From Legionella worsleiensis (lineage in GTDB: Bacteria > Pseudomonadota > Gammaproteobacteria > Legionellales > Legionellaceae), in NCBI RefSeq assembly GCF_001467535.1, contig NZ_LNZC01000022.1, forward strand, positions 41,960 through 92,915: a DNA stretch of 50,956 nucleotides. Direction: 5' to 3'. Both the position numbers and the translations under genes were made by a program. This document shows positions 39,368 through 50,695 of the stretch, piece by piece. Every line of letters begins with the position of its first letter. The first letter of the stretch is position 1. The notes under the pieces are model-generated. The model did no database searches and was not told where the DNA came from. It saw only the letters and a program-made list of their open reading frames with translations.

Positions 39368-39440
39368 GCCGCTGTAGCTCAGTTGGTAGAGCAGTTGATT
39401 CGTAATCAAAAGGTCCGCAGTTCGATTCTGCGCAGCGGCA
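39368..39440 (+). tRNA. tRNA-Thr (anticodon CGT)
   Basis: The 73-nt sequence folds as a canonical tRNA. The acceptor stem is GCCGCTG / CAGCGGC, the D arm GCTC / GAGC and the T arm CGCAG / CTGCG with TTCGATT in the loop. The anticodon loop TTCGTAA has CGT at 39401-39403, reading ACG. The base pair at 27-43 is G-A, a minor weakness. No CCA is encoded. Its 3' half, from the anticodon loop onward, is duplicated at the far end of the island, so this gene is the integration target and remains intact. Confidence 0.95.
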
Positions 39441-42554: not shown

Positions 42555-43139
42555 CTAAACAAAGTGCGACCTAACAAAACCTACTCAATCATTTAATCCG
42601 AGTTTTATCATATTTGGGCTCCAGCTTGTGTCGTAAATTACTGTACTTGTGCATGGGGTGTCATGGGGTTAACTCATACTGATTTGTTCATAATTCTGTG
42701 TTGTTCATTAAAAATGAACAAGATAAAAAAATGAATAAGATTACCTATAAGTCTAGAATATCATGTAAATTACTTCCTAAAAAATGGGGACACTTGGGAC
42801 AAGAGGGACAACCTTGTAAACACTAAATTTTCAGTGTCCCAATTTTAAAAAATCACTTGGGACAAATGGGACAAATCCTGCCAGCAAAATTTTTTTAGTA
42901 ACAAATAATATCATTTAATAACAATCAGATCAGCGTGCTTTAAAGCGCTTGACACCCTTTTAAATTCCACGCAATACTTCACCTGAGCTGTAAACTTTTG
43001 CGGATCCACGGTTCTGTAAAAGTCACGGAAAATGAAATATCACGACTATTATCCGGCCGGACAGTCAACTGATATTCATCGAGCAGGACGCATACCGTCG
43101 GCATTAAGCTGAATGAATAATCATTTGATGAGGTTCCAT
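42555..43139. other. Non-coding region upstream of the HTH/DUF927 module
   Basis: This stretch holds the GGGACA repeat cluster at 42785-42874 and a TTGACA at about 42954. A stretch at 42979-43104 has a less AT-rich codon pattern and contains a 41-codon minus-strand frame without a ribosome site. It may be a cis-acting origin or control region, or hold a gene remnant; I cannot decide. Confidence 0.4.
42785..42875. repeat. GGGACA repeat cluster upstream of the DUF927 module
   Basis: At least four plus-strand GGGACA-type motifs, two of them as CACTTGGGACAA followed by GGGACAA, and an inverted TGTCCCAA occur within 90 bases. The pairs are spaced about one helical turn apart. A similar cluster follows the DUF927 gene. 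Confidence 0.7.
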
Positions 43140-45359: not shown

Positions 45360-46169
45360 TTATTCCTTAAGATATAACCAAAGTGTATTTCTAGATTTTA
45401 TTCCCATCTCATCACGTATCAGCCAACAAGCCTTGTAATTTTTATATTCAGGTAGCAGGTGAGAATACATTTGTTTGGCATACAAGTAGCGCCAGGTTTT
45501 GGTACTGGATAACCAGTGCTTTGCTAATGCGCTACGCCAGATGATACGGATTTCCTCATAAGATTTTAATTGGAGCAAGTTACCATTTTGTTGAGTGAGC
45601 CAGTTAAAAAGACTGAGTACCATTTTCTGGTTTTCAGTTCGTACAGGTATAGTGCGGTCGCTGGAATTAAAAGCAATGTCTCGGGTTACCCAAATAGAAC
45701 ATTCACGAACTTGAATATGTGGCTTAATCAGAATCGCTTCTTTGAAAGTCAGTCCGAACTCAGTTTGTAATCCCATGATTACCCTGGCTATAGGATCGCC
45801 AAGTAACTTCCAAATATCTGGAGAGATTGTTTTCTTTCTCTTTTTTCTTGCTATAGGTCTTGAGAGTTCAAGTGATTGGTTATCGATATTCGATATAGCA
45901 CAATCATTCATCTGCAAAAAACGGCGAATAATGGTCATGTAGCGCATTATGGTGACTGGATTAATATTCTGCTTTTTCCAATAACGCACAAGCTTATGAA
46001 TTTGTTCAGATTGCAAAGCCTGCCATGAAGGTGGCACTTGCCGGATAACAAACAAGTCATCGATCATTTTATGGATGACATAGGCACGGTGTTTTCGATA
46101 TAGGTATTTACCTTGCCTATCCTGTTTGATTTGTCGGTTAGCGAATTGTCTTAAGGATTGTGTACGCAT
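45360..46169 (-). CDS. Degenerate tyrosine-recombinase-like protein (Integrase_1-like)
   Basis: The 269-residue protein has a basic N-terminal SAM-like domain (to about residue 105, PVTIMRYMTIIRRFLQ). Its catalytic-like domain recalls the integrase-domain proteins of islands. The first catalytic Arg region reads GLTFKEAIL where active enzymes have G-L-R-x-x-E. The H-x-x-R box is replaced by KTWRYLYAKQMYSH, though a possible Tyr remains in TLWLYL. I therefore think it binds DNA but may not recombine it. GGATGGGA lies just before the ATG. It is convergent with the DUF927 gene and has a long structured leader containing a hammerhead motif. Confidence 0.65.
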   Translation of the reverse strand: MRTQSLRQFANRQIKQDRQGKYLYRKHRAYVIHKMIDDLFVIRQVPPSWQALQSEQIHKLVRYWKKQNINPVTIMRYMTIIRRFLQMNDCAISNIDNQSLELSRPIARKKRKKTISPDIWKLLGDPIARVIMGLQTEFGLTFKEAILIKPHIQVRECSIWVTRDIAFNSSDRTIPVRTENQKMVLSLFNWLTQQNGNLLQLKSYEEIRIIWRSALAKHWLSSTKTWRYLYAKQMYSHLLPEYKNYKACWLIRDEMGIKSRNTLWLYLKE

Positions 46170-46229
46170 CTTCCCATCCGCAAAAAAATTATTAAAAAAG
46201 AATTTGCCCTGTGTATTGTTTAGTGTTGG

Positions 46230-46278
46230 TCGAGCGGTTCACTCTCTGTTGAAACCCGGCTAAAGCCGTAAAGCTCGA
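46230..46278. ncRNA. Structured cloverleaf-like segment in the recombinase leader
   Basis: An outer 6-bp stem (TCGAGC 46230-46235 / GCTCGA 46273-46278) encloses a GGTTCA...TGAAACC stem and a CGGC-TAAA-GCCG hairpin, forming a three-way junction. The strand is uncertain because pairing works on either, but co-direction with the hammerhead and the recombinase favours minus. I do not recognise the RNA family. Confidence 0.45.
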
Positions 46279-46424
46279 AGTAGGGGGCAAATCAATCGTT
46301 ATAAGGCAAACGATCTCGCCTGTACTGCTAGTTTTTTATGCGTTTTTCTCCTCAATAAAAATAAAGTAAATGAAGCGATAAAGCAGAGCTTTATCTCTAA
46401 TCCATGGTCAAATGAAATGACTTA

Positions 46425-46517
46425 GAGTCCCGAAGAACTCCCCTTACCGAATGGTAAAGGTTCCTGAAGGGTTTCCCGACTATACGTCCAGCCACAAGGT
46501 TAGGGAATGAGAGTGGC
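46425..46517 (-). ncRNA. Hairpin-rich RNA following the hammerhead
   Basis: Read on the minus strand from the ribozyme toward the recombinase, three hairpins follow in order. They are GCCAC/GTGGC (46491-46517), CCTTTACC-ATTC-GGTAAGG (46442-46460), and GAGTTC-TTCG-GGACTC (46425-46440) with a UUCG tetraloop. The dense pairing in a non-coding stretch indicates a folded RNA; its function is unknown. Confidence 0.55.
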
Positions 46518-46520
46518 TTA

Positions 46521-46572
46521 GCATAAGACGCCTATGCGTTTCATCGGAATTTCACCGATTCATCAGTTATGC
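46521..46572 (-). ncRNA. Type I hammerhead ribozyme
   Basis: On the minus strand the order is: stem I 5' arm GCATAA (46572-46567), core CTGATGA (46566-46560), stem II ATCGG-TGAAATT-CCGAT (46559-46543), core GAAA (46542-46539), stem III CGC-ATAG-GCG (46538-46529), T and C (46528-46527), and stem I 3' arm TTATGC (46526-46521). All core bases of the hammerhead consensus are present, the cleavage triplet is GUC, and the arms pair perfectly. Predicted cleavage lies between 46527 and 46526. The 10.1-11.1 pair is A-U rather than the usual G-C. Beyond stem I, AATGA and TCATT can pair across an asymmetric internal loop, as expected for loop-loop contacts in type I hammerheads. Confidence 0.88.
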
Positions 46573-46581
46573 TTCATTTAA

Positions 46582-46610
46582 AAAATAGCAAAGTGCAGAT
46601 CTCGGGGCAA
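46582..46610 (-). promoter_or_regulatory. Candidate promoter just upstream of the hammerhead
   Basis: On the minus strand TTGCCC (plus 46605-46610) and TATTTT (plus 46582-46587) are 17 bp apart. Transcription would start near 46575, a few bases before the ribozyme, so the hammerhead would be the first element of the transcript that continues into the recombinase gene. Confidence 0.4.
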
Positions 46611-46708
46611 TACGATTGTAGGAAATATTTTGTCCTATCTTATCTGGTGCGTTAGGACATATGGTTATTTAAGGCTTGGTACTGGAGGGTTAGTTAAGTC
46701 GAATATTC

Positions 46709-46740
46709 CTGCGTCACTGCAGGGAATTGCAGTGACGCAG
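46709..46740 (-). terminator. Strong hairpin after the SIR2-like gene
   Basis: A 13-bp perfect stem (CTGCGTCACTGCA / TGCAGTGACGCAG) with a 6-base loop lies about 36 bases past the SIR2-like stop on the minus strand. There is no good T run, so it may terminate weakly or serve as a protein-binding or processing site. It separates SIR2-like transcripts from the hammerhead leader. Confidence 0.6.
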
Positions 46741-46775: not shown

Positions 46776-47951
46776 TCAATTACTTAAAATGCTAGCAAGA
46801 GATTTCTCAGAAAAGCCATCAAATATAAATTTGATTTTATCTGAACCAAGATATGAATAAGTTTTTTGTATCTCAATTTTTTGTTTCTTCCTTGAAGCAT
46901 AATTAATAACAGATATTTCTTTTGTATGATTCATTCTTCGGTATTGGCGAACTATATCAAATACCCACTGCCTAATATATTTATCATAATCAACTAGCGA
47001 GCAACCAATTATAATAATTTGATCATTATCGGATCCATAAAATCCTGCACCATAAAATAAGTCTTTAATTGAATCAGAATAAAGTAGTTTGCTATATGAG
47101 GGACTAAGGAGAATAGGATGTGTGAGGGCAGGTGCTTCGTTATTATCAATCCGCCCAAGTGGATTATTATAAACTTTGATGAATTCATTTAAATCTTGAT
47201 CTGATAACCAATAAAGATATTTTAAATTTGTTTCAATTGTTAGTTCAATATTCATTGGGACTATAGGATTTAATTTAGGTTTATCATTACCATGATTATT
47301 GAAAATAAAATCAGCAGGTAATAATGAGTGGGGATTATTTAAATTATCAGTTCTTTGTTTCTCGTAATATTCATTTAGATTAAAGCAATTAATTGAACCA
47401 TGAACTTTTAGTAACGTTACACCGTCATATGGTTCAAAATTCAATTTATCTTTATATATCCATGGAGGCAATAAACGAAACTTTTGTCCTTTTTTCTGTA
47501 AAAAATATTCGATTAGGGTGTCATAATTTAGAGTTATTACAATATCATTGTTGGTTAGAGCTTCTGCAAAGTTATTATATAAATTTGTATTATGAGCTTG
47601 CTCCTGTTTTTTTAAAAGAACGGTTGCAATTAAAACTCTTATTACTTTCTGAATGTTATTACCTTGCCTTGAGCGAGAATTTAGAGTGCCATAAAAATTT
47701 AAAAAACTTTTGTAATCAATATACTCAATAAATTCTTCAATATTAACCTCATTAATTTTTTTATTAGAGTAGTCTTGGTATTCTGTGATAGTTCCAATAA
47801 ACAATTCTTTATATTCAGAAAAAATATTGTTGGTGGGGCTATCAACATAATTTACAATTTCTTGTAAAAGCTGAGTCCCAAGAGGTAAACCTGCTGGCTT
47901 GGAAAATCCAGCACCTAGTATAAATAGGCGACGAATATTATTTCGATTCAT
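46776..47951 (-). CDS. SIR2-like predicted NAD+ hydrolase (defence-type)
   Basis: This 391-residue protein opens with LFILGAGFSKPAGLPLGTQLLQEI (residues 9-32), the GAGxSxxxGLP nucleotide-binding loop of SIR2_2 proteins. VITLNYDTLIEYFLQ carries the conserved Asn-Asp, and LLKVHGSINCFN supplies the catalytic His. Late in the protein IIIIGCSLVDYDKYIRQWVFD matches the GxSLxDxD motif. Bacterial proteins of this type degrade NAD+ upon phage infection and cause abortive infection; that role is inferred from family and context. It is very AT-rich and stands alone: I see no partner such as HerA or an Argonaute next to it. Confidence 0.8.
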   Translation of the reverse strand: MNRNNIRRLFILGAGFSKPAGLPLGTQLLQEIVNYVDSPTNNIFSEYKELFIGTITEYQDYSNKKINEVNIEEFIEYIDYKSFLNFYGTLNSRSRQGNNIQKVIRVLIATVLLKKQEQAHNTNLYNNFAEALTNNDIVITLNYDTLIEYFLQKKGQKFRLLPPWIYKDKLNFEPYDGVTLLKVHGSINCFNLNEYYEKQRTDNLNNPHSLLPADFIFNNHGNDKPKLNPIVPMNIELTIETNLKYLYWLSDQDLNEFIKVYNNPLGRIDNNEAPALTHPILLSPSYSKLLYSDSIKDLFYGAGFYGSDNDQIIIIGCSLVDYDKYIRQWVFDIVRQYRRMNHTKEISVINYASRKKQKIEIQKTYSYLGSDKIKFIFDGFSEKSLASILSN

Positions 47952-48521: not shown

Positions 48522-49028
48522 TTAACTTTTCAAAGCATCCAAACTGTTAGTTAATTTTTTCATTAACGTAGGATTATTTGCTTCTTTAAGTAACTCATCC
48601 CAATTATCAGGAGGATGTCCATTTTCCAGCATCTTTCGAAAAATATGATAAGCATCTGCTTTACTTTCATATGCTCTTTTAGAACTGTCATCATTAACCC
48701 AAGCATAAATAATTATTTTACTTTCTAGATGATATCTAAAAAATAACCGATATTGTTGAAAAAATTTAGCTCGAAACCAATGTTTGTGGTTATTTCCTAA
48801 TGTTGAGCCTTGTCGAAATTCTGTAGCTGCAGGATCGTTTGGAATTTTTTCAAAAGCTAATTTAGCAATAGCTGCTAATTTTTTTGTCGAGTTTCGTGTA
48901 TGAAAATTTAAAGGGTCCTTCTGTTTTACATTTTCTACCTCATCAGCCAGCGCCTCTACTTGTTGCAAAAAAAGAGGATGACATAAAATAGCCCAACCAT
49001 TTATTGTTATTATTGAATTATCAACCAT
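48522..49028 (-). CDS. yhaV: Toxin YhaV
   Basis: The 168-residue protein matches the YhaV family. The N-terminus INGWAILCHPLFLQQVEALADEVE is followed by the family core RQGSTLGNNHKHWFRAKFFQQYRLFFRYHLESKIIIYAWVNDDSSKRAYESKADAYHIFRKMLENGHPPDNWDELL. YhaV is a ribosome-dependent or free mRNA interferase of the RelE/ParE-like fold, neutralised by PrlF. Its start overlaps the last base of the antitoxin gene, ensuring antitoxin-first translation. It is intact and about the usual length, so the module is probably active and may stabilise the island. Confidence 0.92.
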   Translation of the reverse strand: MVDNSIITINGWAILCHPLFLQQVEALADEVENVKQKDPLNFHTRNSTKKLAAIAKLAFEKIPNDPAATEFRQGSTLGNNHKHWFRAKFFQQYRLFFRYHLESKIIIYAWVNDDSSKRAYESKADAYHIFRKMLENGHPPDNWDELLKEANNPTLMKKLTNSLDALKS

Positions 49029-49375
49029 TAGCGAGGTACTCTGTTTTCAATTAATTCTTCATCCTCGGTTAAAGGTTCATCTAAATTGACTTCTACATTT
49101 GCAACCAAAGAGTGGATGCGAGTTATTAAGTCCTGACTAATAGTAGTCAGATTTTTGGGGTTATTTTGAATGTCTTTAGCAATGAAATTCAAAAATTCAG
49201 CAATTACTGGATCTTCTTCTTCCTCTGCTCGAGTCATAAGGACGTGGCCGTCAGATTGAACGGTGTATCGAATTTTATCTCTTTTTCCTAGATGCAGGGC
49301 TTTTCTTACAGCATCTGGTACAGTTGTTTGATAACGATCTGTGAGGGTGGATTCGGTTTGTAGTAATCTAGCCAT
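49028..49375 (-). CDS. prlF: Antitoxin PrlF (SohA)
   Basis: The 115-residue protein has an AbrB/SpoVT-like DNA-binding N-terminus (ESTLTDRYQTTVPDAVRKALHLGKRDKIRYTVQSDGHVLMTRA) and a helical C-terminal toxin-binding part (DPVIAEFLNFIAKDIQNNP...), as in PrlF. The T-V-P-x-x-V-R-K-x-L pattern is the swapped-hairpin signature. It represses its own operon with YhaV; a perfect 14-bp palindrome sits within the promoter spacer immediately upstream. Confidence 0.92.
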   Translation of the reverse strand: MARLLQTESTLTDRYQTTVPDAVRKALHLGKRDKIRYTVQSDGHVLMTRAEEEEDPVIAEFLNFIAKDIQNNPKNLTTISQDLITRIHSLVANVEVNLDEPLTEDEELIENRVPR

Positions 49376-49444: not shown

Positions 49445-50695
49445 TTATAAAAATCCATGAGGCTCTTTTTTTATTTGTTCTAATGGTAGTATTTCTGCAG
49501 ATTTTACTATACCCATACATTTCAAAATGTAGTCTGTAATAAGCTGCATAGGCTTTCGTAGCCGTTCAACATCAACAATAATATATCCAGCAGTCACATC
49601 ATTACTCATTTTATGATTCATTAAACGCTTCAATGCATAAGCAGGGATATCGAGACTCTCTGCAATGGTGATAAAAGTCCGCCTCAAATCATGGACTGTA
49701 AACTGAACGCCTGAATTTTTTATCACATGCGCCATTGTCTTACGGGGTTCAATAATATGACCTGCTGCACCCGGTCCCGGGAAAATATAGTCGTTGATTG
49801 CTTTTTCTTTCCTGGCAATCAACAAATCATAAAGGAAGTCAGAAAGGGGGAGGGTGTGAGATTCATTGTTTTTGGTTTTATTGATAGTGAATGATTTTGC
49901 TTTTAAGTCGAGATCAGACCATTTCAATGTTGCTGCTTCTTGTCTGCGTAGGCCAGTTAATAAGATTAACAATAAATAGTCTCGTAATGTTTCATTTTGG
50001 ATTTGCTGTAATCCAGCATACCACGCTGCTAGCTCATGCGATTTTATATACGTTTTTCGCCTTTCAATGCGATACCAGGCACGTGTTTGAGACAGACGCT
50101 TTACCGGGTTATCGATGAAAAGAGAGTGGCCACTGTTGTCTTCATATTGACCCGCAGCAAAGTTGAATAAAGCTCTTAGAACTCTCATGGCAAGATTAGC
50201 ATAGGCTTCCCCATGTTCATTGCCCAGCTTTTCATGGTATTTCGCTATGCGATCTCTAGTGATTGATAGCATCGGTTTGCTTTTCCAGCTGGTGAAGGCT
50301 TTATCTAATATGTGTTTGTAGTTATCTATAGTTCTGGGTTTTAAGTTCTTTCTGGTTTTTAGGTAGTCTTTAAAGACTTGGTTCAAAGTAATATCTCGAA
50401 CTTCGGTAGCCTTTTTCTCAGCAACCGGATCAATGCCCATGGCGATTTGCCCTAAAAGATGCAGGGCTTTGTTTTTTGCCATTTCAGCAGTCAATTCCGG
50501 GTAGTGCCCTAAAGTAATGCGACAGCGTTTTTTATTTATGAATTTTTCAACAAAAAATGCTTTTGCTCCGCCAGAGGTCACACGTATGCCGAAACCCTTC
50601 AGGTTGTCATCGTAATATCTTTTTTGTGTTGTTTTTCCTTCTTCCTTTGCTTGAGGAAGAGGGAGGTTTTCAACGTTTGTTTTGGTTATTTTCAT
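49445..50695 (-). CDS. int: Tyrosine integrase, P4 type with DUF4102 arm-binding domain
   Basis: The 416-residue protein has an N-terminal arm-binding DUF4102 domain (YYDDNLKGFGIRVTSGGAKAFFVEKFINKKRCRITLGHYPELTAEMAKNKA). A core-binding SAM-like domain and a complete catalytic domain follow: Arg in LLTGLRRQEAATLKW (about residue 247), HDLRRTF (about 333) and the nucleophile Tyr in NDVTAGYIIVDVERLR (about 369). It is adjacent to the right attachment repeat, points inward, and is the enzyme expected to insert and excise the island at tRNA-Thr. Three 9-bp direct repeats precede its start and may both be integrase arm sites and regulate it. Confidence 0.95.
   Translation of the reverse strand: MKITKTNVENLPLPQAKEEGKTTQKRYYDDNLKGFGIRVTSGGAKAFFVEKFINKKRCRITLGHYPELTAEMAKNKALHLLGQIAMGIDPVAEKKATEVRDITLNQVFKDYLKTRKNLKPRTIDNYKHILDKAFTSWKSKPMLSITRDRIAKYHEKLGNEHGEAYANLAMRVLRALFNFAAGQYEDNSGHSLFIDNPVKRLSQTRAWYRIERRKTYIKSHELAAWYAGLQQIQNETLRDYLLLILLTGLRRQEAATLKWSDLDLKAKSFTINKTKNNESHTLPLSDFLYDLLIARKEKAINDYIFPGPGAAGHIIEPRKTMAHVIKNSGVQFTVHDLRRTFITIAESLDIPAYALKRLMNHKMSNDVTAGYIIVDVERLRKPMQLITDYILKCMGIVKSAEILPLEQIKKEPHGFL

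Follow-up and report, generated by a model that had tools for sequence, protein, structure and literature searches.

Bacterial type I hammerhead ribozymes were described by Perreault et al. 2011 (PMC3088659), which reports, in its treatment of the Legionella cases, that in three Legionella strains ardA directly follows a hammerhead. What prokaryotic hammerheads do is called an open question in the corresponding passage of a 2017 review (PMC6155905). A similar arrangement is known from engineering: in the synthetic insulator RiboJ, as outlined in PMC6206723, a self-cleaving hammerhead sits at the promoter junction and is followed by a structured 5' end. Here we analyze a stretch of 50,956 nucleotides (nt) from Legionella worsleiensis (assembly GCF_001467535.1, contig NZ_LNZC01000022.1, positions 41,960 to 92,915, forward strand), referred to in full as the window, which carries on its minus strand a type I hammerhead upstream of a gene for a recombinase-like protein. 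The reading that we develop, which its sequence leaves about evenly poised, is that this hammerhead would form the extreme 5' end of the recombinase-like gene's mRNA in a Legionella mobile element and would trim its own 5' end (5'-end exchange). The locus shares with the bacterial hammerheads of Perreault et al. 2011, as characterized there in outline, the core, three helices, type I topology and a nearby integrase and ardA. Section 6 of that paper makes no mention of placement at a transcript start, of an attached pseudoknot or of RAGATH motifs, all of which are seen here, the first as a prediction. Hammerheads before ardA in Legionella are thus already published, and the window leader adds to a known kind; a first-pass annotation of this DNA, made from the sequence alone, had been under the impression that no Legionella hammerhead had been described.

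46520..46573, minus strand: type I hammerhead ribozyme (sequence and fold, with covariation in relatives), predicted cut between 46527 and 46526

Read on the minus strand, stem I pairs AGCAUAA (46573-46567) with UUAUGCU (46526-46520) over 7 base pairs (bp). The core sequence CUGAUGA occupies 46566-46560, stem II (AUCGG/CCGAU, 5 bp) closes the loop UGAAAUU and is followed by GAAA, and stem III (CGC/GCG plus the core A-U pair) leads to GUC and the predicted cut between 46527 and 46526. The core order CUGANGA...GAAA...UH is satisfied, and helices I-III are present with stem I open, the type I topology, as indicated by covariation in all three and by the minimum-energy fold. A pattern with the hammerhead core spacing matched the window once and 0 of 100 shuffles, and the minimum-free-energy fold of 61 nt shows the hammerhead helices (−14.4 kcal/mol, z = −2.12; equalled by 4 of 200 shuffles). 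The first-pass annotation had proposed a complete core with three complementary helices, spanning 46521-46572 and leaving a 5'-hydroxyl end at 46526 on the minus strand. The core and helices are borne out by sequence, fold, shuffles and the covariation described below, which also supports the assignment to a type I hammerhead in mobile DNA, and the positions agree, including that of the predicted end. Its lengths for stem II (5 bp) and stem III (3 bp plus the core A-U pair) stand, and its 6 bp for stem I become 7.

Covariation among homologues, which had been named as decisive, was found. Loci were drawn by the downstream RAGATH-13 motif, one per match, so the hammerhead itself was no selection criterion; RAGATH-13 gave 74 matches in 32 of 92 related genomes. 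A model (R1) trained on 42 pattern-picked relatives (A1) matched upstream of 72 of the 74 RAGATH-13 matches, 71 of them with the core intact and one (L102) with the ribozyme deleted, while two loci had no R1 match. R1 also overlaps 56 of 56 RAGATH-32 matches, a count that is not independent since R1 includes the RAGATH-32 start. Among the 72 RAGATH-13-drawn loci (alignment A2, 65 distinct sequences), standard pairs fill 95.3% of pair cells, and both partners have changed in 162 cells, where shuffles give 44.0 (standard deviation (sd) 4.7) and slid controls no more than 9; A2 was fitted to the model structure and so leans towards it. The MAFFT alignment of the 42 A1 sequences has 117 both-side cells, compared with 37.3 (sd 6.6) in shuffles. 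RNAalifold on A1, unaided, recovers the hammerhead and a hairpin, and a mutual-information ranking without a given structure places hammerhead and hairpin pairs at the top (129 unique pattern-picked sequences, effective number 26.5). The hammerhead could be an inert relic, merely carried with the mobile element and no longer of consequence, and three of the 74 RAGATH-13 loci do lack an intact copy (the two without an R1 match and L102); L107 holds a further decayed copy. Both-side changes in all three hammerhead stems of A2 make this very improbable, as does the pattern of variable columns in the window's clade of 13 loci: 0 of 12 in the core and 2 of 30 in the stems against 6 of 11 in the loops and 52 of 102 in the spacer, where the clade was picked by the core pattern and the stem II 5' arm and the fair contrast is between the remaining stem and loop columns only. 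From the comparative sequence, the window element is almost certainly a real type I hammerhead.

No Rfam hammerhead family matched the window at its gathering score (the best weak match was RF00008, 16.4 bits against 48.5), and none matched at gathering in 27 further sources (7 + 20, some overlapping; L166-L168 come from other families). The first-pass annotation had counted such an outcome against the hammerhead. We give it no weight, because a control set of 20 viral loci with the same core pattern likewise yields no Rfam hammerhead at gathering. Hammerheads are expected to carry a G10.1-C11.1 pair where stem II meets the core. The window has A-U there, rightly singled out as odd at first; across the 65 distinct sequences the pair is GC in 43, AU in 16, GU in 3, other in 2 and a gap in 1, so the A-U is a compensated variant.

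46582..46610, minus strand: sigma-70-like promoter, −35 TTGCCC at 46610-46605, 17 nt, −10 TATTTT at 46587-46582 preceded by TGC; predicted +1 at about 46574

We scored as a promoter any TTGNNN followed after 16-18 nt by a TANNNT that ends 5-9 nt before stem I. The pattern is present in 60 of 61 unique hammerheads with RAGATH-13 downstream (window included), 44 of which have a gap of 7 and a spacer of 17, and in 18 of 20 other hammerheads, which comprise copies of a second type, HH-B, a few with RAGATH-13 further off or varying, and one decayed copy. When the test was shifted along the upstream DNA, the means were 0.04 and 0.11 and the maximum was 1. Among the matches listed, structured hammerheads on genome contigs have the promoter in 65 of 79 cases (shifted mean 0.53) and a downstream hairpin in 57 of 79; those on viral contigs have the promoter in 4 of 96 (shifted mean 0.33) and the hairpin in 0, a control that is fair only for the sigma-70-like type, as phages may use other promoters. 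By title, 64 of the 80 genome-contig hammerhead loci among the matches listed are Legionellaceae. A promoter that ends 5-9 nt before stem I would probably make the ribozyme the first thing transcribed, and we consider it very likely that the predicted +1 coincides with the first bases of stem I. Such a start leaves no room for an extension of stem I across an internal loop, which had been suggested earlier and is missing from the fold.

The promoter also bears on whether these hammerheads process transcripts, cutting read-through RNA into gene-length pieces or, in pairs, freeing a segment that is ligated to a circle. Perreault et al. 2011 (PMC3088659) proposes, in its discussion of phage cases, the processing of long phage transcripts, and 33 of 53 further R1 matches lie 0.5-12 kilobases (kb) downstream of a same-strand RAGATH-13. 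With a promoter directly before almost every copy examined, however, there would be little upstream RNA to remove. The RtcB ligase family is unmatched in the host genome, although the same search succeeds in E. coli, and the cases examined in the same paper, as reported there, yielded no spliced or circular products. The window itself has a single hammerhead match, though the next one is 7 kb further on the same strand. We regard processing or circularization as improbable.

46473..46517, minus strand: H-type pseudoknot, stem GCCAC (46517-46513) with GUGGC (46495-46491), loop UUCCC (46507-46503) with GGGAA (46477-46473)
46418..46495, minus strand: RAGATH-32 RNA (RF02922), 104.4 bits, gathering 41.8
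46377..46395, minus strand: terminator-like hairpin between RAGATH-32 and RAGATH-13, 1 found in the scan, shuffle mean 0.5
46202..46296, minus strand: RAGATH-13 RNA (RF02688), directly before the integrase-like gene, 109.1 bits, gathering 80

The leader behind the ribozyme is structured as well. The pseudoknot stands directly behind stem I, and in A1 all 5 pairs of its stem show both-side changes. Its loop helix is 95.1% paired in A1 with only 2 both-side cells, and draws its best support from an additional inner pair, CG in 58, UA in 58 and UG in 5 of the 129 pattern-picked sequences. The 5' part of RAGATH-32 overlaps the pseudoknot, the Rfam match beginning at the 3' strand of the pseudoknot stem. 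This suggests that the pseudoknot is the missing 5' half of Rfam RAGATH-32 and that the Rfam boundary is too short: the Rfam model includes neither the hammerhead nor the loop strand, nor the 5' strand of that stem, all of which are present in the window leader. The RAGATH motifs reportedly come from Weinberg 2015 and 2017. Of the 60 leaders before RAGATH-13, 49 have a terminator-like hairpin (shuffle mean 11.9, maximum 17), as do 43 of 53 other leaders (shuffle mean 17.4, maximum 24). Wherever the open reading frame (ORF) of the recombinase-like gene, int1, was found, it starts 9-35 nt after the end of RAGATH-13. Together with the filing of RAGATH-32 as cis-regulatory in Rfam, these features would suit a regulated ribozyme or attenuator, in which the RAGATH-32 pseudoknot and the terminator-like hairpin sense something and cleavage or read-through sets the output of the recombinase and ardA operons. 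Such attenuation or sensing is the main rival to 5'-end exchange, but we think it unlikely, as the window hairpin contains 3 GC pairs and its T tail is broken, and no pair between loop II and the flank is found among the 40 top-ranked mutual-information pairs.

45360..46169, minus strand: Int1, a 269-amino-acid tyrosine-recombinase-like protein without most catalytic residues (family profile and alignments)

Active tyrosine recombinases carry the residues R, H-x-x-R, H and Y. Int1 lacks most of them, with FGLTFKEA, TWRYLY, MGIK and Y where its relative Int2 has FGLRREE, HGLRH, LGH and Y, and most of the residues are lost throughout the Int1 family. Taken alone, Int1 had no Pfam match at E 0.001; of 17 family members, 16 matched Phage_int_SAM_2 with E values up to 0.1, and Int1 is homologous to Int2 with 99.1% probability. 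Int2 overlaps the end of Int1 by 8-11 nt in 14 of 21 non-redundant Int1 loci (four are cut by the stretch end). It was not seen in the searched stretch of five window-type Int1 loci, the window included, and two more had too little sequence. Two Int2 proteins tested match Phage_int_SAM_2 and Integrase_1 (Pfam), and the catalytic motifs are kept in ten aligned Int2 proteins. Int2 is thus apparently an active recombinase, and Int1 appears to be a paralogue conserved without most of its catalytic residues.

HH-B has the same pseudoknot and precedes a second operon, consisting of a small ORF, an SSB-like gene in about half of the loci, and ArdA. Ten loci were listed after HH-B, with an ArdA-like ORF in 9 (the stretch of one ends too early) and an SSB-like ORF in 5; ArdA was tested by Pfam in one HH-B locus, and SSB is named by resemblance only. 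The window's own genome has a leader of this build at L115 (C22:95744-95844, minus strand), where the hammerhead and pseudoknot are followed by a small ORF, an SSB-like ORF and an ArdA-like ORF. In L. adelaidensis, conjugative-element genes are found immediately upstream of the recombinase pair and ardA. HH-B is very probably the published ardA hammerhead and, given the report in PMC3088659, is at least not new.

Comparative sequence backs the core and stems, the promoter, the pseudoknot, the position of RAGATH-13 and the leader of the second operon; from these we infer the following course. RNA polymerase would begin at stem I, and the nascent RNA would fold and cut itself after about 48 nt, setting free a 5' piece with triphosphate and 2',3'-cyclic phosphate ends. 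The mRNA would be left with a 5'-hydroxyl and with the pseudoknot immediately behind it. Such an end would give triphosphate removal nothing to act on and would be a poor substrate for the 5' sensor of RNase E, so the early, transfer-related mRNA would be stabilized and made independent of its own first nucleotides. The terminator-like hairpin and RAGATH-13 might then add control of read-through or translation. Both activities have candidate genes in the host genome, an RppH-like gene (139.8 bits, cut-off 116) and an RNase E/G gene (533.7 bits). PMC4191395 states that RNase E is inefficient on a substrate with a 5'-hydroxyl and, as unpublished data, that a kinase acting on hammerhead-made ends seems to be absent from E. 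coli. RiboJ, the sTRSV ribozyme with a hairpin, is reported in the results cited from PMC6206723 to raise transcript about twofold and protein two- to tenfold.

A number of points weigh against 5'-end exchange. A passage of PMC4191395 describes direct entry, in which RNase E does not depend on a 5'-monophosphate, as a major pathway, and only 20-25% of detectable transcripts are stated there to be stabilized without RppH, so a 5'-hydroxyl may protect little. The RiboJ authors, where they discuss stabilization (PMC6206723), tentatively credit the hairpin and not the 5'-hydroxyl. Within the window, the promoter has 8 of 12 consensus bases and was not listed by a stricter consensus scanner, and plain folding of the 109 nt of RNA after the cut is unremarkable (z = −1.51). 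A tertiary contact between stem I and loop II, which bears on the speed of cleavage in the cell, was not identified. The fixed distance between promoter and ribozyme may also have other reasons. As a selected function, we rate 5'-end exchange a little below evenly balanced. Our wider proposal, that mobile elements of the Legionellaceae carry a dedicated 5'-end exchange module (a hammerhead at +1 with a pseudoknot) on several early operons, those of the recombinases and of ardA, is likewise tentative and somewhat more doubtful than not.

By likeness of work, and not by membership, the window leader may be regarded as a natural counterpart of RiboJ. RiboJ is engineered, derived from a plant satellite RNA (sTRSV), of type III as classified in a passage of PMC6155905, and followed by a 23-nt hairpin; the window leader is natural, of type I, and followed by a pseudoknot and further motifs, and its activity is predicted from sequence. 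If 5'-end exchange is true, this would be a natural, evolved RiboJ, and prokaryotic hammerheads would gain a definite function. A ribozyme family at a predicted transcription start turns the question of their role into a simple one about 5' ends, answerable by existing RNA-seq. The leader also joins two orphan RNA families, RAGATH-13 and RAGATH-32, to the hammerhead.

46710..46739, no strand assigned: perfect 12-bp palindrome with a 6-nt centre, left edge of the shared unit and possible recombination core site; 0 of 100 shuffles
46631..46659, no strand assigned: inverted repeat TGTCC..GGACA between palindrome and promoter, also in relatives, many with longer arms
42762-42880, no strand assigned: right end of the shared unit, with repeated, iteron-like TTGTCCC motifs

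The leader and int1 belong to a unit of about 3.97 kb in the window, from the palindrome (TGCGTCACTGCA-N6-TGCAGTGACGCA, 46710-46739) to about 42762, which is common to four other loci (L118, L120, L121 and L125); the gene order on L. fallonii plasmid III is identical. Cassette similarity begins abruptly in the 20-nt bin of the palindrome in 1211 of 1707 directed local alignments; 46 extend past the compared stretch and 242 begin only about 80 nt before the hammerhead. The palindrome varies between loci in its centre and has compensated substitutions among its outer bases in L026, L077 and L092, and the pattern occurs in 21 of 57 genomes (reversed control, 0). The palindrome is a possible recombination site. 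Two other readings were considered and rejected: that the palindrome is an intrinsic terminator (by eye, there is no consistent T run on either side) and that the cassettes form an integron-like array (a single palindrome is present in 16 of 20 stretches of 14-20 kb, L123 and L133 none by the exact pattern, and L122 and L126 two). Because a perfect palindrome and an inverted repeat mark the start of the unit and a recombinase-like gene lies next to them, the conserved folding might act in DNA as a structure for recombination or transfer, the likeness to a hammerhead being accidental. We hold this to be extremely improbable, since 71 of 74 loci retain an unpaired catalytic core with its elements in hammerhead order and a promoter precedes the hammerhead, neither of which a DNA hairpin would require.

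Among 12 stretches inspected by eye, six sites that lack a full cassette carry truncated left ends, and in two of these the left end is fused to right-end repeats. Deletion derivatives are seen at L407 and L411, where the left end of the unit is joined to right-end repeats, and at L415, where it is joined to the end of RAGATH-13. Another copy of the cassette, 76% identical, is present 13 kb from the first in the host genome, with a third hammerhead between the two. In genome searches run with strict filters, R1 gave 127 matches in 38 of 92 related genomes; it matched 7 of 369 genomes of the class, those outside the family being weak (38-58 bits), and 1 of 398 genomes of the phylum, which is the window's own. 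At this sensitivity the module appears largely confined to the Legionellaceae. The phage collection had no match to the cassette by nucleotide similarity. Two viral contigs (L312 and L333) carry three same-strand hammerhead-pattern matches each, 300 nt and 1.7 kb apart. The neighbours of the unit in the window are a SIR2-like-domain gene (46776-47951), a YhaV-type toxin gene (48522-49375) with a small ORF directly before it, and a tyrosine integrase with a Pfam Phage_integrase domain (49445-50695). The tRNA-Thr gene noted in the first-pass annotation is present at 39368-39440.
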